Below are positions 1 through 35,716 of a stretch of 35,950 nt of DNA, piece by piece. The DNA is taken from assembly GCA_902563305.1 (NCBI GenBank), contig CACEWP010000003.1, positions 1 to 35,950 on the forward strand, in the 5' to 3' direction. The notes under the pieces were generated by a model. That model saw only the letters and a program-made list of their open reading frames with translations, did not search any database and was not told where the DNA came from. Numbering within the stretch: the stretch's first letter is position 1; every line of letters starts with the position of its first letter. The position numbers and the translations under genes were made by a program. Source of the stretch: an uncultured Alphaproteobacteria bacterium. Lineage in GTDB: Bacteria > Pseudomonadota > Alphaproteobacteria > Methylaequorales > Methylaequoraceae.

Positions 1-3000
1 AACGTCAGAAACTCTGAGGTCTCACTTACTGGGCAACAGGGTGGAGAGGATCTAACAATTTCAGGAACAGGAAGTGTTGTAAGTAAAAATGTTGGGAATG
101 GAAAGTTAGTCACTACATCAGGTTTTACTTTAGGTAATGGTCAAAGTGGAACACCAGGTTCAGCATCAAATTACACATTTAGTGGAGGAACGCAAACCTT
201 TAATATTACGGAAAGAGTATTAAATATGTCTGCAAGTAGGGATTATAATAGTCTAAAAACAGTTTCATCCGCAATAGTAACCCTATCCAATTTAGTTGGG
301 AGTGAGACTTTAGGACTTTCTGGCAACGGATCGGTCTCTAATGAGGATGTTGGCACCAATAAAACAATAGGTGTAGATACACTTAGCACGGCTGATGGGG
401 CTAACGGAGGGATAGCCTCAAATTACACTTTGAGTGGAGGCACGCACATTTTAACTATAAATAAGAGCACAATTTCGATTACTGGTACCCGTCAATACGA
501 CGGCTCTACAAATGCTCTTTCTACAGCTTTGTCATTAAATAATCTTCAAGGCGGAGAAAATTTAACATTAAGTGGAGTTGGAACTATAAGTGATAAAAAT
601 GTAGCTAATGGAAAAACACTAGATGTATCCGGTCTGACGTTAGGAGATGGATCTGGAGGTACTCCAGGATTATCATCAAACTACAAATTAGCTGGTGGAA
701 CGCACACATTCAACGTAACCAAAAAGAATATAACGTTTTCAGGGTCCCGAGTATATGACGGAACAACAACTGTTAGTTCGTCAGATTTGATAACAAATGA
801 TACAACTAGTGGAGAAAACCTGACTTTTACTGGAAATGGTTCTGTGTCATCCGCGAATGTTCAAAATAATCAGGCAGTAACTAAGGGTACTATAGCAATT
901 GCCGATGGATCTGGAGGAGGTTTGGCCAGTAATTATAACTTAACTACAGGAACGTTTAATATCAGTCAACAATGGGTAACTGTAAGTGGTCAAAGGATAT
1001 ATGATGCTACAAACACGGTAAATAGCTCAGACTTAGGGGTTACAGGAGAAGTTTCAGGAGAATCCATATCAATTACTGGAACAGGTTCCATAACTGATAA
1101 AAATGTAGGCTCTGGAAAAACTATTAATACATCAGGCTTATCATTAGCTAACGGAACTCACTCAGCTTCAAATTATACTATAGGAACAACAAGTTTTGCT
1201 GTAACACGCAGAAATGTTTCAATTAGTGGTGAAAAGGTATACGACGGAAATGGAACCGTTTCTTCAAATCAGATAGATTCTATAAACACAGCGGGAGGCG
1301 AAACACTAAGTATAGGTGGTCAAGGAAGTGTTTCATTACCGTCGGTAGGAACCAATAAATCTATTACTTTAGGTACGCTTTCAATAAGTGATGGTACATC
1401 CGGGACAATTGGCCTTGCTTCTAATTATACACTTGATTCAGGTTTATTTGATGTAACAGCAAAACCCATAACTTTAAGTGGTTCAAGGCAGTATGATGGA
1501 ACAACAAATGTTGTGAGCAATGATATAACTCTAGTAGGAGAGGTATCAGGGGAATCAATCACAATAACAGGAACAGGCTCGGTAAGTGATAAAAATGTTG
1601 GCTCCGGAAAAACAATCAACACGACTGGCTTGAGTCTGGCCAATGACACCTCTAATGCCTCTAATTACAGTTTAAGTTCAGGGACTTTCGCAATCACTCA
1701 AAAGGCAGTTAACCTCACAGGAACAAGACAATATGATGGAACAACAACGGTTTCATCAGGAAGTATAACACTTTCTGGATTAATTGGATCGGAAACACTT
1801 AATAAATCTGGTTCTGTCACTATAACATCTTCAAATGCCTCAACATACTCATCCGGGTCAATTAATACTTCCTCATTGAGTTTGTCTGATGGAAGTAACG
1901 GAGGATTGAGCTCTAACTATACTCTTTCTGGTGGTTCCCATAGTGTATCAATTGATAAAAAGTCAATCGGGTTAGACGGATCGAAGGTTTATGATGGAAA
2001 TACTACAGTTTCATCTTCTGATCTCTCTTTAAATGGGTTAATTGGCTCTGAAACCCTTAATTTGTCTGGTGCAGGGAGTGTTGTTAATAGTTCAGTAGGT
2101 GATAATAAAACAGTCACCGATGTAAACTTTAGTATCTCTGACAACGGAGGATCCGCAAGTAACTATATTCTGAATGGTTTGCTTCAGGTTGATATCACTA
2201 AAAGACCTGTAGTTGCCTCTGGTAGTAGAGTTTACGATGGAAGTACATCAGTTGGTGGATCAAGTTTAACAACTTTTTCAAATTTAGTTGGTTCAGAAAC
2301 ACTAGCGATTACGGGAAGTGGAACTGTAAGTTCTGGAAACGTAGGAACAGGGAAATCAATTACGCTTGGCACATTAAGTTTAGCTAATGGATCAGGTAGT
2401 GCCAGCAATTATAGCCTTTCCAATGCAAATCTTGATATAACTAAAAGAGCACTTACACTTATTGGATCAAAAATTTATGATGGTAATACAACTATTCAAG
2501 GAAATGAGATTACCACATTTACCAATATTGTGGGATCTGAAACACTTTCAGTATCGGGGTCAGGAACAGTTTCATCTGAAAACGTAGGTTCGTCAAAGGC
2601 ATTAGCGATTGGAGGGTTTTCATTAGTAGATAATAGTGGATTGGCATCTAATTATTCAATTAGTTCTGCAACGGCAAATATAACCCAAAGACCAGTAAAT
2701 ATAACAGGCTCAAGAGCCTACGATTCAACCCGAACAGCTTCTGGGTCTGATTTGAGTTTTACAAATTTAGTAACAGGGCAAACCCTTGGATTAACTGGAA
2801 ATGGTGTTTTGAATTCACCTGCTGCTGGAACACAAACAATAGTAAATACTAATACTTTAGCAATAGTCGATGGATCAGGTTCGGCTAGCAATTATACATT
2901 GACAGGTGGCACCTTAAATATGACAATTATACCTAGATCGACAAGCGTTTCAGGAACTAAAACTTATGATGGAACAACTTCAATTAATCCAGCAGATATA

Positions 3001-6000
3001 ACAACTTTTAGTAATTTAGCTGGATCTGACACACTATCGTTAACAGGTTCTGGAAGCGTTACGTCAGCCGATGTAGGAGCGGCTAAAACAGTCAATATTT
3101 CTGGATTTACTATCGATAACAGCTCAGGTGTTGGATCAAATTATATACTTTCGAGTGGAACTGTAAGTATTGTTAAGAGAAAAATTAATTTAAATGGTGT
3201 AAGAGCATTCGATGGGACTGCTAGTGTTGCAAATTCAGATTTAAACCTTGGAAATCTAGTGAGTGGACAAAATTTAACTCTTTCAGGAACTGGAACAGTC
3301 TCTAGTTCAGCAGCAGAAATGAATAAAGCAATAACGCTCGGAAGTTTATCTATTACTGATGGTTCAGGTGGAGATGCCTCAAATTATACATTAACAGGGG
3401 GATCCCATACATTAGATATTTCTCAGTTATCAGTAAATATTACAGGGAACCGACAATATGATGGAACGAAGACGGTAAACAGCTCGGACTTAAATTTAAC
3501 CAATTTGGTAAGTGGAGAAATAGTAAGTTTGACTGGAGCTGGTACCGTCGCAGATGAAAACGTAGGTGCTAACAAGACTGTTACTGCAGGATCACTTGCA
3601 CTAACAGGTGCAGGTGCTGGAAATTATACTTTAAGTAATTACACTACAACATTTGAAATTACCCCAAGAGTACTTAATTCTTCAGGCACAAGAGTCTATG
3701 ATGGTTCAACAAGTGCTAATGCTTCAGATTTATTGTTATCAAACCTAGTTGGCTCTGAAACTTTAAATCTCTCAGGTTCAGGCACTATATTATCTGCTGC
3801 AGTACAAAATGGTAAAACAGTAAGTAAAAATACTCTTGCATTGTCTAATAATTCAGGTCAAGCAAGTAATTACACTCTTGACGGAGGGACTCATACTCTC
3901 AATGTGACAAAAAGACCGATAACACTCTCTGCAAGTAGAGTTTACAATGGTACTAACGTTCTTGATGGTACAGACATCTCTACTACATTTACATATAGTA
4001 ATGTTGTTGGTTCAGAGATTTTGTCACAGACTGGAACAGGAACAGTTTCAAGTGCTAATGTAGGATCAGGTAAAGCGGTTACAGTTGTTAATTTGGCTCT
4101 GGTCGATGGGTCGGGTGCTGCTGAAAACTATAATTTAACTACGACAACACTTAGTATTACTGGAAGACCAGTCAATCTTGAAGGAACAAGGGTTTATGAT
4201 TCTAGTACGGTGGCCTCGGCATCTGATTTGGCAACAATAAGTAATTTGATAGGCTCTGAAACACTTGTATTATCTGGAAACGGTGCTGTAGGGAATAAAA
4301 ATGTAGGAGATTCTAAAGCGTTAACCGATGTAAGCGGATTGTCGCTTGGAGATGGTTCAAATGGAGGATTAGCAGCTAATTATACTTTATCTGGTGGAAC
4401 ACATTCACTCAGTGTAACTAGAAGACCGGTGACAATAGTTGGAACAAAAATATACGATGGGTTGGCAACGGTTTCAAACTCTGCAATTACATCAATCAAT
4501 AATCGAGCTGGAAGTGAAACTTTATCCTTAACTGGCTCAGGCACAATTGGTTCAGTTGGAGTGGGATCAGGTAAAACAATTTCATTAGGTACATTAGACT
4601 TAGCAGATAATTCAGGTTCTGCCTCAAATTATGAATTAGAATCGGGGACATTTGATGTTACAAAAAGAGATGTAACCTTTGTGGGTGGTCGGGTTTATGA
4701 CGGAACAACAAATGCTAATTCTTCGAATTTTACTACAACTTTCAGCAATCTCGTTAGTGGAGAAAACTTAAACTTGACAGGAATTGGAACAGTTGCTTCT
4801 AAAAATGTTGCTTCGGGACAATCAATTACACTTGGAAGCATTGCCCTTGCTAATGGAAATGCAGCTGCAAGTAACTATAATCTAACAACAGGGACTTTAA
4901 ATATCAATAAAAGACCATTAGGGCTAGAGGGATCACGCGTTTATAATTCTTCCTCGACAGCTTCTGCATCAGATCTAACAACAGTTTCTAATCTGGTGGG
5001 TTCAGAAACAATCTCACTCTCTGGTAATGGTGCTATGGGAAATTCAAATGTCGGAGACTCTAAATTGATAACAAATATTAGTGGATTATCGCTTGGTAAT
5101 GGAACAAATGGTGGTTTGGCAGCTAACTATTCATTAACAGGTGGAACACAAACAATGAGTGTTACCAGGAGACCAATAACAATCAGTGGATCGAGATTTT
5201 ATGACGGAACTACAACTGTCGGTAGTTCAGATATATCGACTTTTAATAATCGATCTGGTAGCGAAACATTATCAATTACAGGTTCAGGTTCAATTGCAAC
5301 AGCAATTTCAGGTTCAGGAAAATCTATTTCATTGGGTACGCTTCAATTAGTTGACGGAAGTGGATTAGCATCAAATTACTCGTTGGCTAGTGGTACGTTT
5401 ACTGTAAATGCTCGTCAGTTAAATGTATCTGGATCAAGAGTGTATGATAATACCACTATTGTAAATGGTTCTGATTTAGTAGTAACCACAGGAATAGGCT
5501 CAGAGCTTATTACTTTAAATGGTCAAGGTAGTATCTCGAATGCTAATGCAGCTAATAACAAATCAGTTACACAAAACACATTAAGTCTGGTAAGTGCAAA
5601 TGGAAACGCATCTAACTATAGTATGGGTACAATAACACTTAATGTAACTCAACGACCAGTTAATGTTGCTCTCGAAAAAGTTTATGATGGAACATTAAAT
5701 GCTCCTGCCTCAGGTTTAAAAGTTGGTGGTATATCCAATACAGTAGGAGGACAAACCCTTACATTAAGTGGAACAGGTTTAATGCAAGATAAAAATGCTG
5801 GGATAGCAAAGAGTGTAGTAAACAATAATTCGCTTACCTTAGGAAGCGGTTCAGGAGCTGCATCTAATTATACTTTATCAGGGGGAGTGCACACTATAGA
5901 TGTTACTCCAAGAGGAACTGTAGCGTCAGGAGGTAGGTCATACGATGCAACTACCACAGTTAAAGGAGATGTATTTGATACATTTACTAATACGGTGGGT

Positions 6001-6573
6001 TCTGATACCGTAACATTAGTTGGCTCTGGCACAATTAACACAGCCAGTGTTGGATCAAAATCAGTAAATATTGGGTCTTTAGCTTCAGCGCATCAAAATT
6101 ATACATTGACTGGTGCGTCAATGAATGTAACCAAGAAACCCATTAACCTCTCGGGTACAAGAATTGCAGTCGACAATCCATCGTTAGTGGTTTTGGCTAA
6201 TGAATTAGACATTATAACAGTTAATAATGAAACTTTAACTCTTTCGGGATCAGGGAATATTTTAGCAAATAATCCTGGTACCACTCAACCCATTTCATTG
6301 GGCACCCTTTCTTTTTCGGACGGAACTGGATTAGCATCTAACTATACTTTTTCAGGCGGTTCATTTTTAATGATTTTAAAGCACAAATTGACTTTTGCCG
6401 CAAGGATAAGGAATATTTTAAAAAAAGGACGCTCAGGTAAGAATTTAACACTCCTTCCAACACGAACATCTCACAGAAATGTACCAGCAGTAGCTGAGAA
6501 AATTAATATCTCTACTCCAGACCAATCAGTAAAAGTAGCACCGTGTATTTTACAAAATGGTCTTTGTAACTAA
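1..6573 (+). CDS. Giant YDG-repeat exoprotein (adhesin-like), 5' end outside window
   Basis: The frame is open from base 1 to the TAA at 6571-6573, so at least 2190 codons are present. The ATG at 226 is only an internal methionine. The protein is almost wholly tandem repeats of about 82 residues, each opening with a G-[ST]-[RK]-x-YDG motif followed by [NT]L-x-GSETL, GSG-x-V, and ASNYTLSGG-like segments. This matches the YDG/MBG-type beta-rich repeats of bacterial filamentous-haemagglutinin-like exoproteins. The composition is dominated by Ser, Gly, Thr and Asn. The last 70 or so residues (from about 6367) are different: basic, and ending in two cysteines seven residues apart, the only ones I found. 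No autotransporter beta-barrel follows, so secretion by a separate TpsB-type porin is likely, though no partner is in the window. Surface adhesion is inferred. The family is fairly sure; the ligand is unknown. Confidence 0.88.
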   Translation, partial: NVRNSEVSLTGQQGGEDLTISGTGSVVSKNVGNGKLVTTSGFTLGNGQSGTPGSASNYTFSGGTQTFNITERVLNMSASRDYNSLKTVSSAIVTLSNLVGSETLGLSGNGSVSNEDVGTNKTIGVDTLSTADGANGGIASNYTLSGGTHILTINKSTISITGTRQYDGSTNALSTALSLNNLQGGENLTLSGVGTISDKNVANGKTLDVSGLTLGDGSGGTPGLSSNYKLAGGTHTFNVTKKNITFSGSRVYDGTTTVSSSDLITNDTTSGENLTFTGNGSVSSANVQNNQAVTKGTIAIADGSGGGLASNYNLTTGTFNISQQWVTVSGQRIYDATNTVNSSDLGVTGEVSGESISITGTGSITDKNVGSGKTINTSGLSLANGTHSASNYTIGTTSFAVTRRNVSISGEKVYDGNGTVSSNQIDSINTAGGETLSIGGQGSVSLPSVGTNKSITLGTLSISDGTSGTIGLASNYTLDSGLFDVTAKPITLSGSRQYDGTTNVVSNDITLVGEVSGESITITGTGSVSDKNVGSGKTINTTGLSLANDTSNASNYSLSSGTFAITQKAVNLTGTRQYDGTTTVSSGSITLSGLIGSETLNKSGSVTITSSNASTYSSGSINTSSLSLSDGSNGGLSSNYTLSGGSHSVSIDKKSIGLDGSKVYDGNTTVSSSDLSLNGLIGSETLNLSGAGSVVNSSVGDNKTVTDVNFSISDNGGSASNYILNGLLQVDITKRPVVASGSRVYDGSTSVGGSSLTTFSNLVGSETLAITGSGTVSSGNVGTGKSITLGTLSLANGSGSASNYSLSNANLDITKRALTLIGSKIYDGNTTIQGNEITTFTNIVGSETLSVSGSGTVSSENVGSSKALAIGGFSLVDNSGLASNYSISSATANITQRPVNITGSRAYDSTRTASGSDLSFTNLVTGQTLGLTGNGVLNSPAAGTQTIVNTNTLAIVDGSGSASNYTLTGGTLNMTIIPRSTSVSGTKTYDGTTSINPADITTFSNLAGSDTLSLTGSGSVTSADVGAAKTVNISGFTIDNSSGVGSNYILSSGTVSIVKRKINLNGVRAFDGTASVANSDLNLGNLVSGQNLTLSGTGTVSSSAAEMNKAITLGSLSITDGSGGDASNYTLTGGSHTLDISQLSVNITGNRQYDGTKTVNSSDLNLTNLVSGEIVSLTGAGTVADENVGANKTVTAGSLALTGAGAGNYTLSNYTTTFEITPRVLNSSGTRVYDGSTSANASDLLLSNLVGSETLNLSGSGTILSAAVQNGKTVSKNTLALSNNSGQASNYTLDGGTHTLNVTKRPITLSASRVYNGTNVLDGTDISTTFTYSNVVGSEILSQTGTGTVSSANVGSGKAVTVVNLALVDGSGAAENYNLTTTTLSITGRPVNLEGTRVYDSSTVASASDLATISNLIGSETLVLSGNGAVGNKNVGDSKALTDVSGLSLGDGSNGGLAANYTLSGGTHSLSVTRRPVTIVGTKIYDGLATVSNSAITSINNRAGSETLSLTGSGTIGSVGVGSGKTISLGTLDLADNSGSASNYELESGTFDVTKRDVTFVGGRVYDGTTNANSSNFTTTFSNLVSGENLNLTGIGTVASKNVASGQSITLGSIALANGNAAASNYNLTTGTLNINKRPLGLEGSRVYNSSSTASASDLTTVSNLVGSETISLSGNGAMGNSNVGDSKLITNISGLSLGNGTNGGLAANYSLTGGTQTMSVTRRPITISGSRFYDGTTTVGSSDISTFNNRSGSETLSITGSGSIATAISGSGKSISLGTLQLVDGSGLASNYSLASGTFTVNARQLNVSGSRVYDNTTIVNGSDLVVTTGIGSELITLNGQGSISNANAANNKSVTQNTLSLVSANGNASNYSMGTITLNVTQRPVNVALEKVYDGTLNAPASGLKVGGISNTVGGQTLTLSGTGLMQDKNAGIAKSVVNNNSLTLGSGSGAASNYTLSGGVHTIDVTPRGTVASGGRSYDATTTVKGDVFDTFTNTVGSDTVTLVGSGTINTASVGSKSVNIGSLASAHQNYTLTGASMNVTKKPINLSGTRIAVDNPSLVVLANELDIITVNNETLTLSGSGNILANNPGTTQPISLGTLSFSDGTGLASNYTFSGGSFLMILKHKLTFAARIRNILKKGRSGKNLTLLPTRTSHRNVPAVAEKINISTPDQSVKVAPCILQNGLCN
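232..6366 (+). repeat. 25 tandem YDG-type repeat units plus one partial unit
   Basis: Unit starts, placed at the residue before the [ST]-[RK]-x-Y motif, fall at 232, 484, 742, 988, 1228, 1480, 1720, 1978, 2221, 2464, 2707, 2953, 3196, 3445, 3685, 3931, 4183, 4441, 4684, 4930, 5188, 5431, 5671, 5929 and 6154. The mean spacing is about 247 bases (82 residues). Bases 1-231 are the end of a further unit. The YDG tripeptide is YDG in most units, with YDA, YDS, YDN, YNS and YNG variants. The last unit (6154) has lost the tyrosine motif. At DNA level the units differ at many synonymous sites, so this is an old, divergent array and not an assembly collapse. Confidence 0.9.
3931..5430 (+). repeat. Higher-order duplication of a three-repeat block in the adhesin
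   Basis: Units 16-18 (3931-4683, 753 bases) and units 19-21 (4684-5430, 747 bases) correspond one to one. The first unit of each block has a TTF-S insertion and ends NYNLTT followed by an LEG linker. The second units share S-x-ASASDL, SGNGA-G, NVGDSK, SGLSLG and GGLAANY. The third units share INNRAGSETLS or FNNRSGSETLS. The match is clear in protein and weaker in DNA. It indicates a duplication of the three-unit block followed by divergence. Confidence 0.75.
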
Positions 6574-25371: not shown

Positions 25372-25670
25372 TAATTAACTTTCATTATTTTTGTGGGATC
25401 ATTTTTTTTCTTTCCTTCTTTTCTTATTAGATAAATATTTCTGGAATAGATTAAGAAACCGCAGGATTGTCCAACAATAAATACTGGATCTTCTTTATGA
25501 ATTGCATAGCTTAACAAAACCATACTCCCTGCCAAACTTATCCACCAAAAAATATTTGGTATTATGCTCTTTGATGCTCTCTCACTTACAACCCACTGTA
25601 CTAGAAATCGGGAAGCAAAAATTGTTTGACCAATAAAGCCAATTATTAGCCAAATTTGTTCATTCGCCAT
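25371..25670 (-). CDS. Lipid-A-disaccharide-synthase N-terminal-like (LAB_N) membrane protein
   Basis: This 99-residue protein has three membrane segments and the LAB_N pattern: GFIGQTIFASRFLVQWVVSE (residues 12-31), then FWWISLAGSMVLLSYA (41-56) and GQSCGFLIYSRNIYLI (67-82). Stand-alone LAB_N proteins lack the LpxB catalytic domain and usually sit beside GT2 and ArnT-like genes, where they may aid lipid A or lipid-linked sugar handling. It overlaps the GT2 gene by 11 bases and the glycosylase by one, so all three are likely cotranscribed. The exact role is unknown. Confidence 0.88.
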   Translation of the reverse strand: MANEQIWLIIGFIGQTIFASRFLVQWVVSERASKSIIPNIFWWISLAGSMVLLSYAIHKEDPVFIVGQSCGFLIYSRNIYLIRKEGKKKNDPTKIMKVN

Positions 25671-26367
25671 TTTTTTTCTCCTTTTTAATTAATATCCAAA
25701 CTTTTATTAAGTCTATAATACCTATCCAAAATCTATTATTAAAAGAATATTTTGAAATCCCAGCATCTCTTGGTCTATCATTAACTTGAATATTATATAT
25801 TCTACAGTCATTCATCTTAAATAGGGCTGGAAGAAATCTATGCATATTTTTAAAATATTTAATTTGCAAATAATCATTTTTTAAAAAAACTTTTAATGCG
25901 CACGCAGTGTCATTGCAATCATCATTAAGAAAAAATTTCCTTACTTTATTTGCAATCTTTGAGCTAATTCGTTTGGTTAAAGTGTCTTGCCTATTAACAC
26001 GATTGCCACAAATTAAAAATTTCTTTTTTCTTTCTTTGGGAAGAGAACTCCAGAATTTTATTAATTTTTTTACTTCATAAGGAGGGTTTTGACCATCACC
26101 ATCCATTACACAAATAAGGTTATTCGAAGCTACGGATACCCCTGTTAACATTGCCATACATTTGCCAAGATTTTCTAGGTGATTTTCTATTTTTATTTTC
26201 TTATACCTTGGAGATTTAATTTTTTTATCAAAGCCATCATTACTCCCGTCATTAATAATAACAATTTCTGGAGATTTATTTTTAAATTCATTATGGATTT
26301 CTTCTATTAATTTGAATATGGATCCAGATTCATTGTAAATTGGTATTATAATACTAAAATTTTTCAT
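25660..26367 (-). CDS. Family 2 glycosyltransferase (polyprenyl-phosphate type)
   Basis: The 235-residue protein is a GT-A fold GT2 enzyme like dolichyl-phosphate mannosyltransferases and ArnC. It has IIIPIYNESGSI (residues 6-17), VIINDGSNDG, the metal-binding VMDGDGQNPP (about 88-97), the acceptor-side DTACALKVF and DRPRDAGISKYSF near residue 200, and a C-terminal hydrophobic stretch without the two long membrane helices of ArnC. It probably charges undecaprenyl phosphate with a sugar for use by the divergent ArnT-like enzyme at 26416. The sugar is unknown. The ATG at 26367 is 48 bases from that gene. Confidence 0.88.
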   Translation of the reverse strand: MKNFSIIIPIYNESGSIFKLIEEIHNEFKNKSPEIVIINDGSNDGFDKKIKSPRYKKIKIENHLENLGKCMAMLTGVSVASNNLICVMDGDGQNPPYEVKKLIKFWSSLPKERKKKFLICGNRVNRQDTLTKRISSKIANKVRKFFLNDDCNDTACALKVFLKNDYLQIKYFKNMHRFLPALFKMNDCRIYNIQVNDRPRDAGISKYSFNNRFWIGIIDLIKVWILIKKEKKNGE

Positions 26368-26415
26368 TTTGAATGTATGATATTTTTAAATCTAGTCTAG
26401 TATGTATATTTAGCA

Positions 26416-28020
26416 ATGAATATTTCTTTTGATAAAAAATTTATCCTCTTCTTATTAATTTGTTTAGTAATTTATTTCCAAGGAATCTTAAGGTTACCAG
26501 TTATGGACAGGGATGAGGCTAGATTTGCCACTGCGTCTAAAACAATGCTTATTAATGGAGACTATATTGACATACAAATGGTTGACGAGAAAAGGTATAA
26601 AAAACCAATTGGAATTTATTGGTCACAAACTCTGGCCAACACAGTAATTGGAAAATTTCCATACGATAAAATATGGATTTACAGATTACCCTCATTGTTT
26701 GGGATTTTTATAAGTTTCTTAGTGATCTTTTTATTAATTAAGAAAATTGAAAATTCCAATGTTGCTTTCTTGACAGTATTTTTTCTTGCATCATCCATCT
26801 TAACAATTTCTGAAGCTCATCAATCCAAAACAGACGGTTTATTGTTTTTATTCATAACCTTATGTAATTTAATTATTTACAAACTTATTCATGTCCAAAA
26901 ATTAAAAAACTTAGATAAATTGATTTTTTGGATTTCATTCTCAATGGGTATATTAATTAAAGGTCCAATTATTTTGATCTTTACTATTCTGCCATTACTT
27001 CTTTTTTCATTTGTTAAGAAGCAGAATTATCTAAAAAGTATATGGTCAACTTTTGGTTTTTTACTTTTAATTTGTATTACGCTTCCATGGTTTGTCTTGA
27101 TAAATATTAAATCAGGGGGATTATTCTGGCACGAGTCAATTGGAAATGATCTTTTTGAAAAGGTTAAATCTGGAAAGGAGTCACATGGCTTTCCACCTGG
27201 ATATTATAGTTTGCTAATATTTCTTTTCTTCTGGCCTGGCTGTATATTCTTAATCAGTTTGCTCAAAAAAATAAGATTGAATTTCAGAAAAATATTTAAT
27301 AATGACAAATTTTCATTTTATCTTATCTTAAGTTTTCTATGTCCATTTATACTGTTTGAAATGATACCTACCAAACTCCCCCACTATGTTTATCCAGCAT
27401 ATCTTCCTTTGAGTATTTTAATTTCAAAGAACATTATTGCTAATAGTTTTAAGTCAAAAATAATTAGTTATTCTTCAATTCCACTATTAATTTTTCCAAT
27501 TGCAGTAATTGCTTTAATAGTTTTCTCAATTATTCAGTTTTCAAAAGTAGATTTGAATTTTCTAATTATAATATGTTCATTAGTATCTTTCACATTATCT
27601 TTATTTTGGATAAAAATTAAAAAAAATGTTAGGAGTTTGATCATAGCTTCAGGCCTTTTTCAAATATTCACATATTTAGTTCTTATCTTTTTTTTAATAC
27701 CGAGGTTAGAGAATTTATGGATTTCTGAAAAAATAAATAAGATAATTACTAAACATGAAAAAAGTGTTGATAAAGTTTTTACTATTGGATTCAATGAACC
27801 AAGTCTATTATTTTTGACTTCTCATAAATCGAGTAATTCACTAGAGAACTTAGATTTTAATCAAATTAAAGAGAAAAAAATTTTACTAATTATTACTGAG
27901 AAATTTAATAAAAATATTTTAGAAAAAAAAGATTATTCTAGTTTTATACTTATTGATGAATTTGTTGGTTTTAATTATTCGAGAGGTAAAAATGTATATT
28001 TTAAAGTTTACAAGAATTAA
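26416..28020 (+). CDS. ArnT-like family 39 glycosyltransferase (GT-C)
   Basis: The 534-residue protein has about eleven to thirteen membrane segments and the GT-C signature MDRDEARFATASKTML near residues 30-45, where the Asp-Glu pair serves the polyprenyl-phosphate sugar donor in ArnT and PMT enzymes. EAHQSKTDGLLFLF and the KLPHYVYPAYLPLSIL stretch are also ArnT-like. The C-terminal 100 residues form a soluble periplasmic domain. It should transfer a sugar from undecaprenyl phosphate to lipid A or another envelope acceptor on the periplasmic side. Neighbours (GT2, LAB_N, PAP2) support that. Whether the sugar is aminoarabinose is doubtful, since no arnA or arnB is in the window. Confidence 0.88.
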   Translation: MNISFDKKFILFLLICLVIYFQGILRLPVMDRDEARFATASKTMLINGDYIDIQMVDEKRYKKPIGIYWSQTLANTVIGKFPYDKIWIYRLPSLFGIFISFLVIFLLIKKIENSNVAFLTVFFLASSILTISEAHQSKTDGLLFLFITLCNLIIYKLIHVQKLKNLDKLIFWISFSMGILIKGPIILIFTILPLLLFSFVKKQNYLKSIWSTFGFLLLICITLPWFVLINIKSGGLFWHESIGNDLFEKVKSGKESHGFPPGYYSLLIFLFFWPGCIFLISLLKKIRLNFRKIFNNDKFSFYLILSFLCPFILFEMIPTKLPHYVYPAYLPLSILISKNIIANSFKSKIISYSSIPLLIFPIAVIALIVFSIIQFSKVDLNFLIIICSLVSFTLSLFWIKIKKNVRSLIIASGLFQIFTYLVLIFFLIPRLENLWISEKINKIITKHEKSVDKVFTIGFNEPSLLFLTSHKSSNSLENLDFNQIKEKKILLIITEKFNKNILEKKDYSSFILIDEFVGFNYSRGKNVYFKVYKN

Positions 28021-28023
28021 AAT

Positions 28024-28800
28024 ATGAAAAATTTAATAAATTTTGAACTCTTAATATCAATAAGATTTTTTATTTTTATATCGTTTTTTATATTGGTTCT
28101 ATTTCTTTTTTTTGATGTTTATTTATTTGAACTATCTAGATCTTTCCCTGGAATTTTATTTAGTTTTTTCAAAAACATTATTGATCCACTTTCAAGTATT
28201 TTAGATCCTTTAAATTTGATCATAATTTGTTTGCTTACTTTATTATTAAATTCAAATGTTAAAGTAATTATTAAAAATGAAAAAAAATTTGAAATAATTA
28301 GGTCCAAAACTGATTTTGATATAGAAAAAGTAAAAGATCTCTTTGCATATACATCTCTTGTTTGTAGGCATTTTGTTTTTTCATTAGCACTTGCAGGAAT
28401 ATTTTGTAATATTTTGAAATACGTTTTTGGTGTATCCAGACCTAAATACTTTTTTTTAGAGGGATATGAAAGAATTAATTTTTTTAATTTAGAACATAAA
28501 GTAAGTTCATTTCCTTCAGGACATACTCAAGCTGCTTTTACTTTAGCAGTTCTAATAATTATCTATTCTAAAAGATATTATTTTGTAATTATCAGCTTTG
28601 CAATTTTAATGGGTTTATCAAGAATTTTTATGTCTATGCATTTTCCCAGTGATATTGTTGCAGGAGCTTATTTAGGCTCGTTAGTGCCGATTATTCTTTA
28701 TAACTTAAGTTTTAAATATAAAATTGAAAAAATAAAAAAAAAACATGATTTCTTTTTTAAAGATCTTGTAAGATTAATGTACTGGAGAATGTTCATATGA
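28024..28800 (+). CDS. PAP2-family membrane phosphatase
   Basis: This 258-residue integral membrane protein has the complete three-part PAP2 acid-phosphatase signature: K132 through R139-P140 in KYVFGVSRP, PSGH at 164-167, and SR-x5-H-x3-D at 199-210 (SRIFMSMHFPSD). It likely removes phosphate from a lipid such as undecaprenyl diphosphate, phosphatidate or lipid A; LpxE- and LpxF-like roles are possible given the neighbours. It starts three bases after the ArnT-like stop and overlaps the next gene by four bases (ATGA). Confidence 0.9.
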   Translation: MKNLINFELLISIRFFIFISFFILVLFLFFDVYLFELSRSFPGILFSFFKNIIDPLSSILDPLNLIIICLLTLLLNSNVKVIIKNEKKFEIIRSKTDFDIEKVKDLFAYTSLVCRHFVFSLALAGIFCNILKYVFGVSRPKYFFLEGYERINFFNLEHKVSSFPSGHTQAAFTLAVLIIIYSKRYYFVIISFAILMGLSRIFMSMHFPSDIVAGAYLGSLVPIILYNLSFKYKIEKIKKKHDFFFKDLVRLMYWRMFI

Positions 28801-29155: not shown

Positions 29156-29329
29156 ATGCTTAGTTTAATTCATAGTCTTAGATTAGATAGAAACAAAGAA
29201 AAAACTAATTTTTCATTTAAAAAAGATCTTGATAACTACAACACTTCTGAACTGATTCCAGCGTCATCTGCTGTTTTAAGCAACAAACAACTATCTTCAA
29301 ATTGGCTTTCTATTTACAGAAAACAATAA
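29156..29329 (+). CDS. Candidate 57-residue small protein
   Basis: An ATG at 29156 opens a 57-codon frame that ends in a TAA lying inside the stem of a strong terminator hairpin, the layout expected of a real short gene. The product (starting MLSLIHSLRLDRN, ending WLSIYRKQ) is basic, has no cysteine, no membrane segment and no family I know. An upstream AAGAA is at best a weak ribosome binding site. In DNA this rich in A and T, 57 codons without a stop is uncommon but possible by chance. It lies 38 bases after the secreted four-cysteine gene. Confidence 0.5.
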   Translation: MLSLIHSLRLDRNKEKTNFSFKKDLDNYNTSELIPASSAVLSNKQLSSNWLSIYRKQ

Positions 29330-29356
29330 AACCCCAGTGAAACTAGGGTTTTATTG
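29324..29356 (+). terminator. Strong hairpin terminator
   Basis: The arms CAATAAAACCC (29324-29334) and GGGTTTTATTG (29346-29356) pair perfectly over 11 bp. Inside, after one C-A mismatch, AGT and ACT pair again around a GAA triloop. The TTTTATT tract on the right arm supplies the U-rich run, so it looks like an intrinsic terminator; the A-rich left arm would give one on the other strand too. It would end the ArnT–PAP2–secreted-protein run. Confidence 0.75.
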
Positions 29357-29496: not shown

Positions 29497-29538
29497 ATTT
29501 TGTTTAATTTAATTTTTTTTTTTTTAAAATCATTCTTA

Positions 29539-30771
29539 ATGAGTAAATTAAAAATAGCCGTAATAGGAAGTGGCATTTCTGGGTTATCAACTGCATGGTA
29601 CTTAGCGAAAAAGTATGATGTTGATATTTATGAAAAAAATAATTATTTTGGTGGGCATTCAAACACTCACTCATTCAAATTTAAAAATAGTGAATTAAGC
29701 ATTGATACAGGTTTTATTGTTTTTAATGAAAAAAATTACCCAAATTTATGTAGTTTTTTTAAACTATTAAATGTAAATTCTTACGAAAGTGATATGTCAT
29801 TCTCAGTATCAATGAATAAAGGAAAATTAGAATATTCAGGATCTTCACTATTATCAATCTTTGCTCAAAAAAAAAATTTATTTAACTTTAAATTTCTTAA
29901 AATGCTCTATGAAATTGTAAGATTTTACAATGAGGCTGAAGCAGATAGAAAAGTCTTTACTAATCTAACGATTTGTGAATATTTGGATTTGAAAAAATAT
30001 TCTCACTATTTTAAGTATAATCATTTATTTCCAATGGCATCAAGTATTTGGTCATCTCCAATTAGTAAAATTCCTGACTATCCATTTGTAGAGTTTGTAA
30101 ATTTTTTCTCTAATCATGGACTATTGAGAATTTTTAATAGACCTAAATGGCGTACAGTAGACGGGGGAAGCAAAGAATATGTAAAAAAAATTTTAATGAA
30201 TAAAAGAATTAAATCATTTAAGTCTTCAAAAGCAGTTATCAAAAAAAAAAAAAGTAAATGGGAGGTACAAAGTAATAAAAAAAAAAAATATTATGATCAC
30301 GTAGTTGTAAGTGTTCATTCCGATCAAGTGAAAGACTTAGTTTTTTACCCCAAGTACAAAGATTTAGAAATATTCTCAAAAATAAAATATAGTAAAAATA
30401 AAGTATATCTGCATTCAGATCCCAAATTAATGCCAAGAAGAAAAGATGTCTGGGCAAGCTGGAATTATATAGAAAATAAATCTGGAATAACAGTTACATA
30501 TTGGATGAATTTATTACAAAAAATTGGAACTGATAAAGACTTTTTTGTGACACTAAACCCTGAGCACCCTCCAGAGTCTAATAAAATTGAAAAAGAAATC
30601 ATATATGATCATCCCATTTATGACTTAGAAACTTTTAAAAACCAAGCTAAAATAGAATTGTTGCAGGGAAAAGAAAATTTATGGTTCTGTGGAGCTTACC
30701 TTGGATATGGTTTTCACGAGGATGGTATAAAGTCTGGTATAAAAGTGGCAAAAAAATTACTTAAAGGGTAA
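29539..30771 (+). CDS. NAD(P)/FAD-dependent oxidoreductase of the DUF1365/cyclopropane-synthase cluster
   Basis: From the ATG at 29539 the protein is 410 residues and begins MSKLKIAVIGSGISGLSTAW, a GxGxxG dinucleotide fold, followed by YEKNNYFGGHSNT, the second FAD-contact motif. DTGFIVFNEKNYPNL, WRTVDGGSKEYVKKI and the C-terminal FCGAYLGYGFHEDGIKSG are typical of the flavin amine-oxidase-like proteins always found beside DUF1365 and a cyclopropane-synthase homologue. A TTG 39 bases upstream would add a tail encoded largely by a T13 tract, which is unlikely. It probably oxidises or desaturates a membrane fatty acyl chain; that is inferred from the cluster. The coding region contains A13 and A12 runs. 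Confidence 0.88.
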   Translation: MSKLKIAVIGSGISGLSTAWYLAKKYDVDIYEKNNYFGGHSNTHSFKFKNSELSIDTGFIVFNEKNYPNLCSFFKLLNVNSYESDMSFSVSMNKGKLEYSGSSLLSIFAQKKNLFNFKFLKMLYEIVRFYNEAEADRKVFTNLTICEYLDLKKYSHYFKYNHLFPMASSIWSSPISKIPDYPFVEFVNFFSNHGLLRIFNRPKWRTVDGGSKEYVKKILMNKRIKSFKSSKAVIKKKKSKWEVQSNKKKKYYDHVVVSVHSDQVKDLVFYPKYKDLEIFSKIKYSKNKVYLHSDPKLMPRRKDVWASWNYIENKSGITVTYWMNLLQKIGTDKDFFVTLNPEHPPESNKIEKEIIYDHPIYDLETFKNQAKIELLQGKENLWFCGAYLGYGFHEDGIKSGIKVAKKLLKG

Positions 30772-31539: not shown

Positions 31540-32726
31540 TGATCAATTCAGATTTTAATAAAAAATTAGATTTATTTTTTGAAGTGCTTTCTCAAAGTAA
31601 ATTTGGAAGTATTACTGTCGAGTATAAAAAAGAAATACTATTCAAATATAATGGACAGTATGAGGGCCCGGACTCGAAGATCATTATAAGGAAAAAAAAA
31701 TGTTTAGACGATTTTTTTATAAAAGGTGATTTAGGATGGGCAGAAAGCTTTATTCAAGAAAATTGGAGCACACCTAATCTTACAAACTTTTTAGAATGGG
31801 GTGCAAAGAACTTTCATGAATTTTCAAAATTTATAAGGGGTAAGTGGTATATTATTTTTTATTTAAGAATTATGCATTTCTTCAATAGAAATACAAAAAA
31901 TGGATCTCAAAAAAATATTAAATTTCATTATGATTTGGGCAATCACTTTTATCGATCATGGTTAGATAAATCGATGACATATTCATCAGCTATTTTTAAA
32001 AACAAAAGAGATGACTTATATGATGCACAAATAAATAAATATAAGAATCTCGCAGAGTTAATTAATGTAAAAAAAAATGAGAAAATATTGGAAATTGGTT
32101 GTGGCTGGGGTGGTTTTAGTGAGTTTCTTGCTCAAAACTATGAGGCTAAAGTAACCGCAATTACAATTTCCGAAAATCAGTACAAATCTGTGAAACAGAA
32201 TATTCTGCGAAAAAAATTAAATGATTTAGTTGATGTTAAATTAATTGATTATAGAGATGTTTCTGGAAAATTTGATAAGATAGTCTCGATAGAAATGTTC
32301 GAAGCTGTAGGGGAAAAATACTGGGAAGATTATTTTAAAATTTTAAGTAATAATCTGAAAAATGATGGGTGTATTGGTCTTCAAACTATCACAATTGATA
32401 ATAAGTTTTTTACAAAGTATAGGAAATTTCCAGATTTTATTCAGACATACATTTTTCCAGGTGGTATGCTTCCATCGATTGAAGCAATGAGTCAAGTTTT
32501 GGATAAAAATGGCTTGAAAGTAGATTCTCATTTCATGTTTGGAGACCACTACGCAAAAACTCTCGAATTTTGGAGAAAGTCTTTTGAAAATTCGTGGGAC
32601 AGTATTAGAAATATGGGCTTCAATGACACATTTAAAAGAATGTGGAATTACTATCTAAGTTATTGTCAGGGTGGTTTTCAATCTGGGAATATAAATGTTG
32701 GTCAATTCTTGATTAAGAAAATTTAA
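31539..32726 (+). CDS. Cyclopropane-fatty-acid-synthase family SAM methyltransferase with variant active site
   Basis: The 395-residue enzyme has the family order FHYDLGNHFYRSWLDKSMTY (129-148, in part), the SAM loop EIGCGWGG (185-192), VSIEMFEAVGEKYW (249-262), FPGGMLPS and the C-terminal YCQGGFQSGNINVGQF. It should methylate or cyclopropanate double bonds of membrane phospholipid chains. Compared with E. coli CfaS, the bicarbonate-binding cysteine 139 appears as serine (S149 in MTYSSAIF) and histidine 266 as glutamine (Q282 in LQTITI), while the key glutamate (E256) remains. It sits between DUF1365 and a transporter, as in clusters tied to methylated or furan fatty acids. True cyclopropane formation is therefore uncertain. 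Confidence 0.9.
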   Translation: MINSDFNKKLDLFFEVLSQSKFGSITVEYKKEILFKYNGQYEGPDSKIIIRKKKCLDDFFIKGDLGWAESFIQENWSTPNLTNFLEWGAKNFHEFSKFIRGKWYIIFYLRIMHFFNRNTKNGSQKNIKFHYDLGNHFYRSWLDKSMTYSSAIFKNKRDDLYDAQINKYKNLAELINVKKNEKILEIGCGWGGFSEFLAQNYEAKVTAITISENQYKSVKQNILRKKLNDLVDVKLIDYRDVSGKFDKIVSIEMFEAVGEKYWEDYFKILSNNLKNDGCIGLQTITIDNKFFTKYRKFPDFIQTYIFPGGMLPSIEAMSQVLDKNGLKVDSHFMFGDHYAKTLEFWRKSFENSWDSIRNMGFNDTFKRMWNYYLSYCQGGFQSGNINVGQFLIKKI

Positions 32727-32727
32727 A

Positions 32728-34011
32728 TTGAAGATAAATTTGAGAGATATCCTCTATGCATCTCCTGCATTTGCATTTGCTATTCCAACATTTCCTGTAA
32801 TGATATTTCTACCAGCTCTTTATACTGAAAGCCTTGGAATGTCAGTGGCAAAAGTTGGTTTATTCCTTTTTATTGCAAAACTAATTGATATCTTAAGTGA
32901 CCCTTTTATTGGATGGCTGAATGATAAAAGAATTCTTAGTAGAAAAGTTTTAATAGTAATTGGATCGATAATATCAGCAATTTCTTTATGTAAATTATTT
33001 TTAATTAGTAAAATTCCTTATGAAGAATATTTACTACTTTGGATTGGTTTATTATACCTAGGTTGGACTATGTTTCAGATACCTTATCTTTCTATAGGTT
33101 ATAATCTTGAAAATGGTTATTTCTATAGAACTAAACTAAGTGCAACTCGCGAATTGTTCATATTAATAGGACTATTTTCTTCTTTATGTATTCCAATGTT
33201 TCTTTCAATAAATAATATTGTTTTGGCAAAATACTTAGTAAAGATGGCATTGGTTACTGGTTTTATAGGAATTTTTTTTTTATGTTTTTTCATTAAAGAT
33301 GATAATAATTTCAAGAAATCAATCTCTATAAAATATTCTCTTACAAACATATTGTCCCATCTAAGATTAAAAAGATTTTTATTTATATGGTTTATAAACT
33401 CATGTGCAAATGTTTTTCCAATGATTTTATTTGCTTTTTACATAACGTATGTATTAGATGGGAATGATTTTGATAGACAGAGGATTTTATTCTTTTATTT
33501 TCTATTTGCTATTATTGGAGTTCCATTTTGGACTCAATTAAGTAAAAAAACAAATAAAGCTAAAGCTTGGTCTGCTTCATTAATATCATCAGCAACTTTT
33601 TTTATTTTTGTAATATTTCTCAATCCTGGAGATTTATTTTTCTTTACATTAATTTCTTGTCTTACAGGATTTTGTCTTGGTGCAGATTTGGTCATTCCAC
33701 CTTCAATTCAGGCAGATATGACAGATATGCATGAACAGAAATACAAAGAAGAAATTTCAGGAGTGCTTTTTTCTCTCATAACAGCAATAACAAAATTATC
33801 ATTTGCTTTAGGAAGCTTTTTTGTTTTTGGTTCTCTAGGTTTATTAGGTTTTGATGCAAATTTACCGACTAGTAGAGAAATTGAGTATTTTATTATTTTT
33901 TCTTATGCCGTTATTCCTATAATTCTAAAGATAATATCTTTCATTAAATTGATAAACTTTAAATCTAGTCATGAGGAGTTAATTAATATTCAAAAGAAAA
34001 TTAACAGATGA
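32728..34011 (+). CDS. MFS transporter, GPH/MelB-like
   Basis: This 427-residue protein has about twelve membrane segments and the glycoside-pentoside-hexuronide (MFS_2) pattern: LPALYTESLGMSVAKVGLF, then AKLIDILSDPFIGWLNDK around residues 50-68, ISGVLFSLITAITKLSFALG late in the protein, and GADLVIPPSIQADMTD. Members in cyclopropane/DUF1365 clusters have unknown cargo; a lipid or lipid-derived solute is only a guess. The start is a TTG at 32728, one base after the previous stop; a second TTG lies at 32740. Confidence 0.85.
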   Translation: MKINLRDILYASPAFAFAIPTFPVMIFLPALYTESLGMSVAKVGLFLFIAKLIDILSDPFIGWLNDKRILSRKVLIVIGSIISAISLCKLFLISKIPYEEYLLLWIGLLYLGWTMFQIPYLSIGYNLENGYFYRTKLSATRELFILIGLFSSLCIPMFLSINNIVLAKYLVKMALVTGFIGIFFLCFFIKDDNNFKKSISIKYSLTNILSHLRLKRFLFIWFINSCANVFPMILFAFYITYVLDGNDFDRQRILFFYFLFAIIGVPFWTQLSKKTNKAKAWSASLISSATFFIFVIFLNPGDLFFFTLISCLTGFCLGADLVIPPSIQADMTDMHEQKYKEEISGVLFSLITAITKLSFALGSFFVFGSLGLLGFDANLPTSREIEYFIIFSYAVIPIILKIISFIKLINFKSSHEELINIQKKINR

Positions 34012-34041: not shown

Positions 34042-34566
34042 GTGAAAAGTTTTTTTGTTATATTATTACTTTTTTTAAATTCCTGTACTAGTGAAATGAA
34101 TCTAAATAAATTTTCAAATATGAAACCAGAGTTTTCCTTAGAGGATTATTTTTCTGGTAAAACTGAAGCATGGGGATTGTTTCACGATAGATTTGGGAAC
34201 TTAAAAAGATCTTTCAAAGTCGATATTACTGGGACTTTGTCAGGAAATTTACTTACGCTTGACGAAAAGTTTTTATATGATGATGGAGAAGAAGATCAAA
34301 GAATATGGAAAATCAAGTTATTAGGTAATAAAAAGTATTCTGGAACCGCTGATGATGTTGTAGGTTCGGCTATTGGTGAAGCCAGTGGAAACGCACTTAA
34401 TTGGAAATATAAACTTAATTTGAAGATAAAGGATTCGACTGTTAAGGTAGATTTTGACGATTGGATGTTTTTGCAAGATAGAGGTATATTAATTAATCGA
34501 GCTGAGGTAAAAAAGTGGGGACTTAATGTTGGTGTTGTAACAATTACATTTTTAAAAATTAATTAA
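34042..34566 (+). CDS. DUF3833 lipoprotein
   Basis: The 174-residue product has a short lipoprotein signal ending in LNSC (cysteine near residue 15), so it should be anchored to a membrane in the periplasm. The mature part has the DUF3833 pattern: FSLEDYFSGKTEAWGLFHDR, FGNLKRSFKVDITG, LDEKFLYDDGEEDQRIWKI, and SAIGEASGNALNWKYKLNLK near residues 113-132, likely a lipocalin-like beta-barrel. It belongs to the same cluster as DUF1365 and the methyltransferase. The start is a GTG at 34042. Its stop and the convergent gene's stop share the four bases TTAA. Confidence 0.88.
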   Translation: MKSFFVILLLFLNSCTSEMNLNKFSNMKPEFSLEDYFSGKTEAWGLFHDRFGNLKRSFKVDITGTLSGNLLTLDEKFLYDDGEEDQRIWKIKLLGNKKYSGTADDVVGSAIGEASGNALNWKYKLNLKIKDSTVKVDFDDWMFLQDRGILINRAEVKKWGLNVGVVTITFLKIN

Positions 34567-34964
34567 TTATGCATTTTTTTAAAAATCGATCCAACAATAG
34601 GTAAATTAGAGTAAACATTTTTCCCACTATCCCAATAATCAATGTGTTTAATAATAAGATTCTTTTCTATCACCAACTCACTTACCCCATCAAAGTTTAT
34701 TTTCTTATTAGAAGATTGATATTGAAAATTCCATTTAATAAAAGTTAAATCTTTTTCTTCAAGTACATTTAAAATTCTGAATTTCGGATTTCTTATTTTC
34801 ACGAACATTTTCTTGAGAAATTCCCTAAAACTTTCTTTGCCTATTATTTTATTAAATGGATCAACAAAAATAAAATCTTCGTGCAAACAATTTATTAGAT
34901 TACAAATTGTAGAGGGTTTTAATTGCTCAAAAGATCTGACGTATTTTTTTGTAATAATTTTCAT
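34563..34964 (-). CDS. SnoaL/NTF2-like protein
   Basis: The 133-residue protein has the cone-shaped NTF2 fold pattern: an N-terminal helix pair (FEQLKPSTICNLINCLHEDFIFVDPFN, split around residues 13-39), then IIGKESFREFLKKMF, and strands with FIKWNFQYQSSNKKINFDGVSELV, ending IKHIDYWDSGKN. The FVDPF and DYWD motifs are typical of nuclear-transport-factor-2-like proteins in SDR/DUF1365/cyclopropane clusters. No reaction is proven. Its ATG overlaps the SDR stop as ATGA, so it is coupled to it. Confidence 0.85.
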   Translation of the reverse strand: MKIITKKYVRSFEQLKPSTICNLINCLHEDFIFVDPFNKIIGKESFREFLKKMFVKIRNPKFRILNVLEEKDLTFIKWNFQYQSSNKKINFDGVSELVIEKNLIIKHIDYWDSGKNVYSNLPIVGSIFKKMHN

Positions 34965-35716
34965 CCTGGTAGTTTAATAAACTTTTTAATTAGAAAGAAA
35001 TAAATCTTATATGGTAAAAAACTAATTAATTTCATTGGAATTAATAGTATCTTCGGAAAGTAGATTTCAAAGACATCTGAGTTAATTTTAGAGAAAATTA
35101 TTTTTGCTGCTTTTTCAGAACTCATTAAAAATGGCATAGGAAAAGTATTTTTGTCAGTCATTGGTGTTTTGATGAAACCTGGGTGAACAACCTGAACTTT
35201 TATATTGTATTGTTCTAACTCTATCTTTAAAGTTTCAGCTAAAAAAGTTAAACCTGATTTCGTTACTCCGTATAAACCAGCACCTGGCATGCCCCTATAT
35301 CCTGCAGGTGAAGATACAAACAAAATATGACCTTTATTTTTTTTTTTCATCATATTAACTATTATGGGGAGGCAATTGATGACACCTGTTAAATTAATAT
35401 CAATTACTTTCTTAGCGTTAGTTGGAGATATTTCTTGTAAGGAGCCAGGACTATAAATTGCTGCATTAAGTATTAATAAATCAACAAACTTAAATCTCTT
35501 GATTATTTTATTTGCAACCTTGTTTACCTCTTTCAAATTACTAACATCAAGTCTAAATGGAAATATTTTTTTATTGTTGTACTTTGAAACCTCTATAAGT
35601 TTTTCTTTCCTTCTTCCACTTATTATTACATCATACCCGCTATCACATAATTTTTTTGCTAGTTCTTTTCCAATACCTGTTCCACCTCCTGTAATCCAAA
35701 CTAAACCTTTATTCAT
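34961..35716 (-). CDS. Short-chain dehydrogenase/reductase
   Basis: The 251-residue classical SDR starts VWITGGGTGIGKELA (TGxxxGxG cofactor loop, residues 6-13), with SGRRKEK after the second strand suggesting NADP(H), NAA in LILNAAIYSPGS, the catalytic serine in LFVSSPAG and tyrosine-lysine in YGVTKSG, and PGFIKTPMT. The C-terminal 40 residues are hydrophobic and basic and may touch the membrane. Members in this cluster probably act on a lipid-derived ketone or alcohol; the substrate is unknown. It overlaps the upstream gene end by eight bases and the downstream gene by four. Confidence 0.92.
   Translation of the reverse strand: MNKGLVWITGGGTGIGKELAKKLCDSGYDVIISGRRKEKLIEVSKYNNKKIFPFRLDVSNLKEVNKVANKIIKRFKFVDLLILNAAIYSPGSLQEISPTNAKKVIDINLTGVINCLPIIVNMMKKKNKGHILFVSSPAGYRGMPGAGLYGVTKSGLTFLAETLKIELEQYNIKVQVVHPGFIKTPMTDKNTFPMPFLMSSEKAAKIIFSKINSDVFEIYFPKILLIPMKLISFLPYKIYFFLIKKFIKLPG

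Follow-up and report, generated by a model that had tools for sequence, protein, structure and literature searches.

The methyltransferase gene considered here is very probably ufaM, encoding the enzyme with which bacteria begin the synthesis of furan fatty acids, and it lies in a predicted ufaD-ufaO-ufaM operon within the 35,950-nucleotide stretch of DNA that was analyzed (the window). Furan fatty acids are protective compounds made from membrane fatty acids. The fact that an FAD enzyme, a DUF1365 protein, and a CMAS-family protein are encoded side by side, and that the last of these carries UfaM residues, indicates that the window holds this operon.

An earlier sequence-only reading of this DNA had proposed a relative of cyclopropane synthases, and this much is borne out. 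The open reading frame (ORF) encodes a CMAS-family protein (PF02353, E=2.6e-86) that is full length, including the N-terminal domain, and has the CMAS fold expected of CfaS. Its closest solved relatives by sequence are the cyclopropane fatty acid synthases 5z9o, 6bqc (Escherichia coli CfaS), and 7qos, and the same three structures are the fold matches of an AlphaFold2 model with a mean pLDDT of 93. With 267 bits, the protein falls short of the 400-bit threshold of the NCBIfam CfaS equivalog (NF008686), and of the Glu, His, and Tyr ligands that characterize CfaS, Glu and Tyr are present and His is replaced by Gln. Membership among canonical CfaS enzymes was ruled out by clade, residues, and gene context.

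Table 1. Features of the furan fatty acid locus and of the codons for active-site residues, in window coordinates.
Feature	Position	Strand	Basis or remark
Hairpin of 15 pairs resembling a terminator, between ufaD and the genes upstream of the operon	29324..29356	-	weak
ufaD-like FAD/NAD-binding amine-oxidase-type enzyme	29539..30771	+	36% identity to Cereibacter johrii ufaD homologue
ufaO-like DUF1365 protein, 253 aa	30778..31539	+	PF07103 E=2.2e-58, 198 bits vs cut-off 25
ufaM-like SAM-dependent fatty-acyl methyltransferase, CMAS/PF02353, 395 aa	31539..32726	+	ORF and profile match
S150 codon	31986..31988	+	opposite E. coli CfaS C139, bicarbonate contact, changed
E252 codon	32292..32294	+	opposite CfaS G236; E in 66/66 UfaM-type, G in 50/50 CfaS-type
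E255 codon	32301..32303	+	opposite CfaS E239, bicarbonate ligand, kept
A256 codon	32304..32306	+	opposite CfaS H240; A in 66/66 UfaM-type, H in 50/50 CfaS-type
Q282 codon	32382..32384	+	opposite CfaS H266, bicarbonate ligand, changed
I284 codon	32388..32390	+	opposite CfaS I268, bicarbonate contact, kept
Y338 codon	32550..32552	+	opposite CfaS Y317, bicarbonate ligand, kept
MFS_2 transporter, RSP1089 homologue	32728..34011	+	24% identity to G066 homologue
DUF3833 protein, RSP1088 homologue	34042..34566	+	29-30% identity
SnoaL-like protein, convergent with the operon	34563..34964	-	ORF list and profile match
Short-chain dehydrogenase, RSP1087 homologue	34961..35716	-	33% identity

In E. coli CfaS, bicarbonate is contacted by C139, E239, H266, I268, and Y317 (PMC3132707). 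The sequence-only reading had placed S149, E256, and Q282 opposite the first three, an assignment that was to fall if a proper alignment put other residues there. When the window protein was aligned by MAFFT with E. coli CfaS (L004; sequence from the MG1655 record), the letters S, E, and Q held, although two of the numbers did not: the aligned residues are S150 and E255, S149 is the preceding serine that is conserved in both UfaM-type and CfaS-type proteins, and position 256 holds an alanine. That cysteine and histidine are gone while the glutamate is retained is likewise seen in this alignment, as are the kept contacts I284 and Y338, which had gone unmentioned. Because the Glu, Ile, and Tyr contacts remain, the bicarbonate site is changed but not lost. 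Two further substitutions, E252 and A256, lie outside the three sites originally named; both fall inside an EMFEA block, and both discriminate fully between the two protein types. The window protein has in common with E. coli CfaS (6BQC) the fold, the SAM site, and the equivalents of E239, I268, and Y317, and it differs from it in having S150, E252, A256, and Q282 in place of C139, G236, H240, and H266.

The loss of residues had been offered as an argument for a product other than a cyclopropane, and for this purpose it is insufficient. The E. coli C139S variant keeps 31% of its catalytic efficiency, and cotton GhCPS1, which has S602 and Q737 at the C139 and H266 positions, nevertheless forms cyclopropane fatty acids (17:0 and 19:0) when expressed in yeast (PMC3132707). 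Indeed, cotton enzymes lack the histidine and have serine or cysteine, and in most cases glutamine, at the same two positions, and some of them make cyclopropanes (PMC3132707). Serine and glutamine alone therefore do not predict the product, and plant enzymes that carry the same C139 and H266 substitutions and make cyclopropanes weigh against a UfaM assignment (PMC3132707).

These precedents give some standing to the possibility that the window protein makes cyclopropane fatty acids in spite of its substitutions, with E255, Q282, and Y338 holding the bicarbonate and the FAD protein just helping. The kept Glu, Ile, and Tyr contacts would suit such an enzyme, as would the finding that the fused oxidase domain of GhCPS1 increases activity (PMC3132707). 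Plant cyclopropane synthases and Arabidopsis UFAMD1 (AT3G23510) carry the FAD and CMAS domains fused, whereas separate genes encode them in the window (PMC3132707, PMC10940516). We consider a cyclopropane product improbable, however, given that the window protein groups with bacterial UfaM rather than bacterial CfaS and that a ufaO homologue is part of the same operon. Moreover, no cyclopropane was formed in yeast by the Agrobacterium proteins homologous to the two halves of the plant enzyme (PMC3132707), and UfaM of Halomonas made a methyl-branched product (PMC12089945).

The placement with UfaM comes from a survey of 100 regions of alphaproteobacterial genomes and eight plasmid regions, for which CMAS proteins, their residues, and their neighbors were recorded. 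Residues were compared between 66 UfaM-type (Q-type) and 50 CfaS-type (H-type) rows. The H266 position is glutamine in all of the former and histidine in all of the latter, and the G236 and H240 positions separate both types just as completely (E and A in 66/66 versus G and H in 50/50). The C139 position is more varied, with serine (58), alanine (7), or glycine (1) in UfaM-type proteins and cysteine in 50/50 CfaS-type proteins. In a maximum-likelihood tree, the Q-type rows (the window protein included) and the H-type rows split on one branch with an SH-aLRT of 99, and the window protein is placed with its own family inside the Q-type. Since the S/E/Q residue pattern is fixed throughout a whole clade, it is not a product of chance.

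An additional 16 CMAS proteins encoded near DUF1365 genes all have glutamine at the H266 position and alanine at the H240 position. Cysteine is retained at 139 in two of the 16, one of which also has glycine at 236. One more CMAS protein, from a genome with its DUF1365 gene on another contig, has alanine at the H266 position. These proteins mark the H240-to-A and H266-to-Q changes as the firmest and the C139 position as looser. One linked CMAS protein (L282 4115-5386) combines residues of both types: its set of C, G, E, A, and Q is CfaS-like at 139 and 236 and UfaM-like at 240 and 266. The window protein conforms to the residue set S/A-E-E-A-Q-I-Y, a pattern that was derived here and is not a published definition. 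The altered residues are present, and they are what is usual in a large subfamily that is already known. Judged from these alignments, the altered residues are a hallmark of the UfaM branch and not a peculiarity of this bacterium.

Genomic linkage divides the two types as well. Among Q-type rows, 48 share their locus with a homologue of ufaD, of ufaO, or of both, and 13 are unlinked, a number that includes the window's own row (which has no locus neighbors in the table) and the UfaM genes of the Rhodobacter group, which lie apart. Among H-type rows, 49 are beside neither gene. The few H-residue rows that scored as linked comprise an extra copy in L210, whose locus also has a Q-type gene, and shorter paralogues that carry EMFEHM or similar motifs and resemble plant N-methyltransferases. 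DUF1365 is present in 42 of the 44 genomes in which a Q-type gene was read.

The shorter CMAS paralogues near ufaD or ufaO (L041 7610-8941, L042 7876-8982, L254 1132-2172, and L273 263-1357) have EMFEHM- or EMWEHM-like motifs where read, and those of L041 and L042, on annotated plasmids, adjoin DUF1295 genes. It is possible that these four are FufM-like methylases for dimethyl furans. FufM is the dimethylating enzyme, whose homologue in Arabidopsis has been described as a methyltransferase dependent on SAM (PMC10940516). We suspect that FufM belongs to the CMAS family. No further CMAS protein above the Pfam cut-off was found in the organism's own genome, which is 78% complete; if FufM is indeed of this family, this finding would suggest a monomethyl furan fatty acid as the product. 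That the gene has no such companion also counts in favor of the UfaM assignment.

In the window itself, homologues of both ufaD and ufaO adjoin the ufaM-like gene, and the gene order is kept throughout the window's family. The sequence-only reading had noticed the neighboring FAD enzyme and missed the DUF1365 gene, the ufaO homologue, that lies between the two. The ufaD-like ORF was listed from a TTG at 29500, although translation more probably starts from the ATG at 29539. Its product has domains of the Amino_oxidase/NAD_binding_8 type and resembles UfaD in being an NAD/FAD-binding, desaturase-like protein encoded beside ufaO. The window has homologues of all five R. sphaeroides proteins RSP1091-1087, plus ufaM. 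The hairpin upstream of the operon is a weak feature because one was found where shuffled sequences led us to expect 1.8. Further upstream (25660-28800) are a glycosyltransferase-like ORF, a PAP2 phosphatase (Pfam), and a 534-aa multi-span membrane protein that by eye is like a lipid A sugar transferase, and positions 226-6573 form a single ORF of 2115 aa.

FAD-DUF1365-CMAS blocks were also observed on plasmid-labeled records of Klebsiella pneumoniae (L037, NZ_CP129856.1) and Pseudoalteromonas (L039), accompanied by SDR, NTF2-like, DUF2878, and DUF3833 genes. The L039 block has a photolyase and a ChrR anti-sigma gene as neighbors. ChrR is a known regulator in R. sphaeroides, and several relatives of the window organism have its gene beside the same operon. 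Regulation by an RpoE-ChrR pair was sought via ChrR in the organism's own genome (G000), and no ChrR anti-sigma factor was found in the 78% of the genome that is available. Singlet-oxygen regulation is accordingly without support here, which is a point against the UfaM assignment.

Among the closest characterized systems are those of Rhodobacter/Cereibacter sphaeroides, Rhodopseudomonas palustris, and Halomonas. For R. sphaeroides we used genome G066, which is of the same genus as Cereibacter johrii, a genus reached by way of its reaction-center L protein. The genes of its DUF1365 locus encode 245, 186, 401, and 249 aa and so match RSP1087, RSP1088, RSP1089, and RSP1090, with published sizes of 738, 561, 1206, and 750 bp (PMC7380195); on this agreement, G066 was taken as R. 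sphaeroides. For ufaD, the comparison was made with Cereibacter johrii, since the G066 locus has only N in its sequence toward ufaD. UfaM of G066 is 40% identical to the window protein over 392 aa and carries the same seven residues. Thus, the window protein has in common with UfaM (RSP2144) both the clade and the S, E, E, A, Q, I, Y set. The arrangement differs, in that Cereibacter genomes have ufaM apart from ufaD and ufaO (in Cereibacter johrii it adjoins an ORF that by eye reads as a photolyase) and the window has all three adjacent.

The adjacent arrangement is matched in R. palustris RPA2571-2569 and in Halomonas sp. YLGW01, each of which has three neighboring genes of the same families as the window. 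In R. sphaeroides and R. palustris, UfaD, UfaO, and UfaM are respectively of the FAD/NAD-binding amine-oxidase, DUF1365, and CMAS families, the same order as in the window; the corresponding R. palustris genes RPA2571, RPA2570, and RPA2569, consecutive by locus tag, are sufficient for 9M5-FuFA (PMC7380195). The pathway leads from a phospholipid cis-vaccenoyl chain to 11Me-12t-18:1, then to 11Me-10t,12t-18:2, and with O2 to 9M5-FuFA (PMC7380195). UfaM of the consecutive Halomonas cluster made 11-methyloctadec-12-enoate in E. coli (PMC12089945), and Caenorhabditis elegans FCMT-1 is a relative thought to methylate cis-vaccenate (PMC10876521). It is clade and operon, rather than the serine and glutamine alone, that predict the product of the window protein. 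Within the UfaM branch the gene looks ordinary, and such bacterial operons are already known.

Two other products were weighed. In the actinobacterial Tms/Bfa pathway, the product of a methyltransferase is reduced by a flavoprotein, which in the case of TmsA we take to be of the FAD_binding_4 type. A CMAS protein also adjoins a flavoprotein in the window, such that a methylene or 10-methyl type of product followed by flavoprotein reduction could be imagined. This is extremely unlikely, because the flavoprotein is of the Amino_oxidase/NAD_binding_8 type, as described for UfaD (PMC7380195), and not of the FAD_binding_4 type, and because DUF1365 is also present. Alternatively, UfaM might make the methylated trans-alkene, with the UfaO and UfaD homologues, whose similarity is weak, converting it to some oxidized fatty acid other than a furan. 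Identities to characterized proteins are in fact moderate (UfaM 40%, UfaD 36%, UfaO 26-27%), which tells against the UfaM assignment too, and the DUF1365 protein has just 26-27% identity to Cereibacter UfaO. However, the putative Arabidopsis UfaO is equally low against that of C. sphaeroides (26%; PMC10940516), and the gene order is kept in the window's family, leaving a non-furan product very unlikely.

On the UfaM assignment, the protein would transfer the methyl group of SAM to a cis double bond in an acyl chain of a membrane phospholipid. No cyclopropane would be closed; a proton would instead be lost from a neighboring chain carbon to give a methyl-branched trans-unsaturated chain (11Me-12t-18:1 in R. 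sphaeroides). As deduced from this known product, methylation of C11 would place a positive charge at C12, and the proton would leave C13. In CfaS, by contrast, the proton is lost from the new methyl group. UfaD would then desaturate the methylated chain to a conjugated diene, and UfaO would insert an O2-derived oxygen to close the furan ring. The sequence-only reading, in which a methylated chain is handled by the neighboring FAD enzyme, is probably right in this respect and fits the UfaM-UfaD-UfaO pathway encoded by the three adjacent genes.

We infer that the window protein performs the same reaction as UfaM of R. sphaeroides and R. palustris and that E252, A256, S150, and Q282 help set the product. 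The base may be bicarbonate held by E255, Q282, and Y338, or it may be E252 itself. A hint comes from coclaurine N-methyltransferase (6GKV), a CMAS-family relative of the window protein that acts on nitrogen. Its E204, which is near the methyl acceptor and whose alanine mutant has 4-6% activity (PMC6099451), would fall opposite E252 by the E-x-x-E-H spacing, as deduced from residue numbers (PMC6099451). This correspondence makes E252 a candidate base or cation stabilizer. The catalytic H208 of the N-methyltransferase is kept and, by the same spacing, is opposite A256. A more specific proposal, which we put forward tentatively and regard as doubtful, is that in the UfaM branch E252 rather than bicarbonate removes the proton, that A256 makes room at a site occupied by histidine in CfaS, and that E252, A256, S150, and Q282 together form a switch by which one and the same methyl-transfer chemistry leads to a methyl-branched alkene rather than a ring.

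The residue signature sharply divides UfaM from true cyclopropane synthases, which databases label alike; indeed, the annotated plasmid records surveyed name ufaM-like genes "cyclopropane-fatty-acyl-phospholipid synthase family protein". It also makes the question of ring closure versus methyl branching testable with a few mutants. The genome that hosts the window, that of an uncultured and probably alphaproteobacterial organism, is small and AT-rich. The synthesis of furan fatty acids, which has been described in a few phototrophs and one Halomonas, would thereby be placed in a family of small-genome alphaproteobacteria in which this CMAS gene is the only member of its protein family above the cut-off in the genome.
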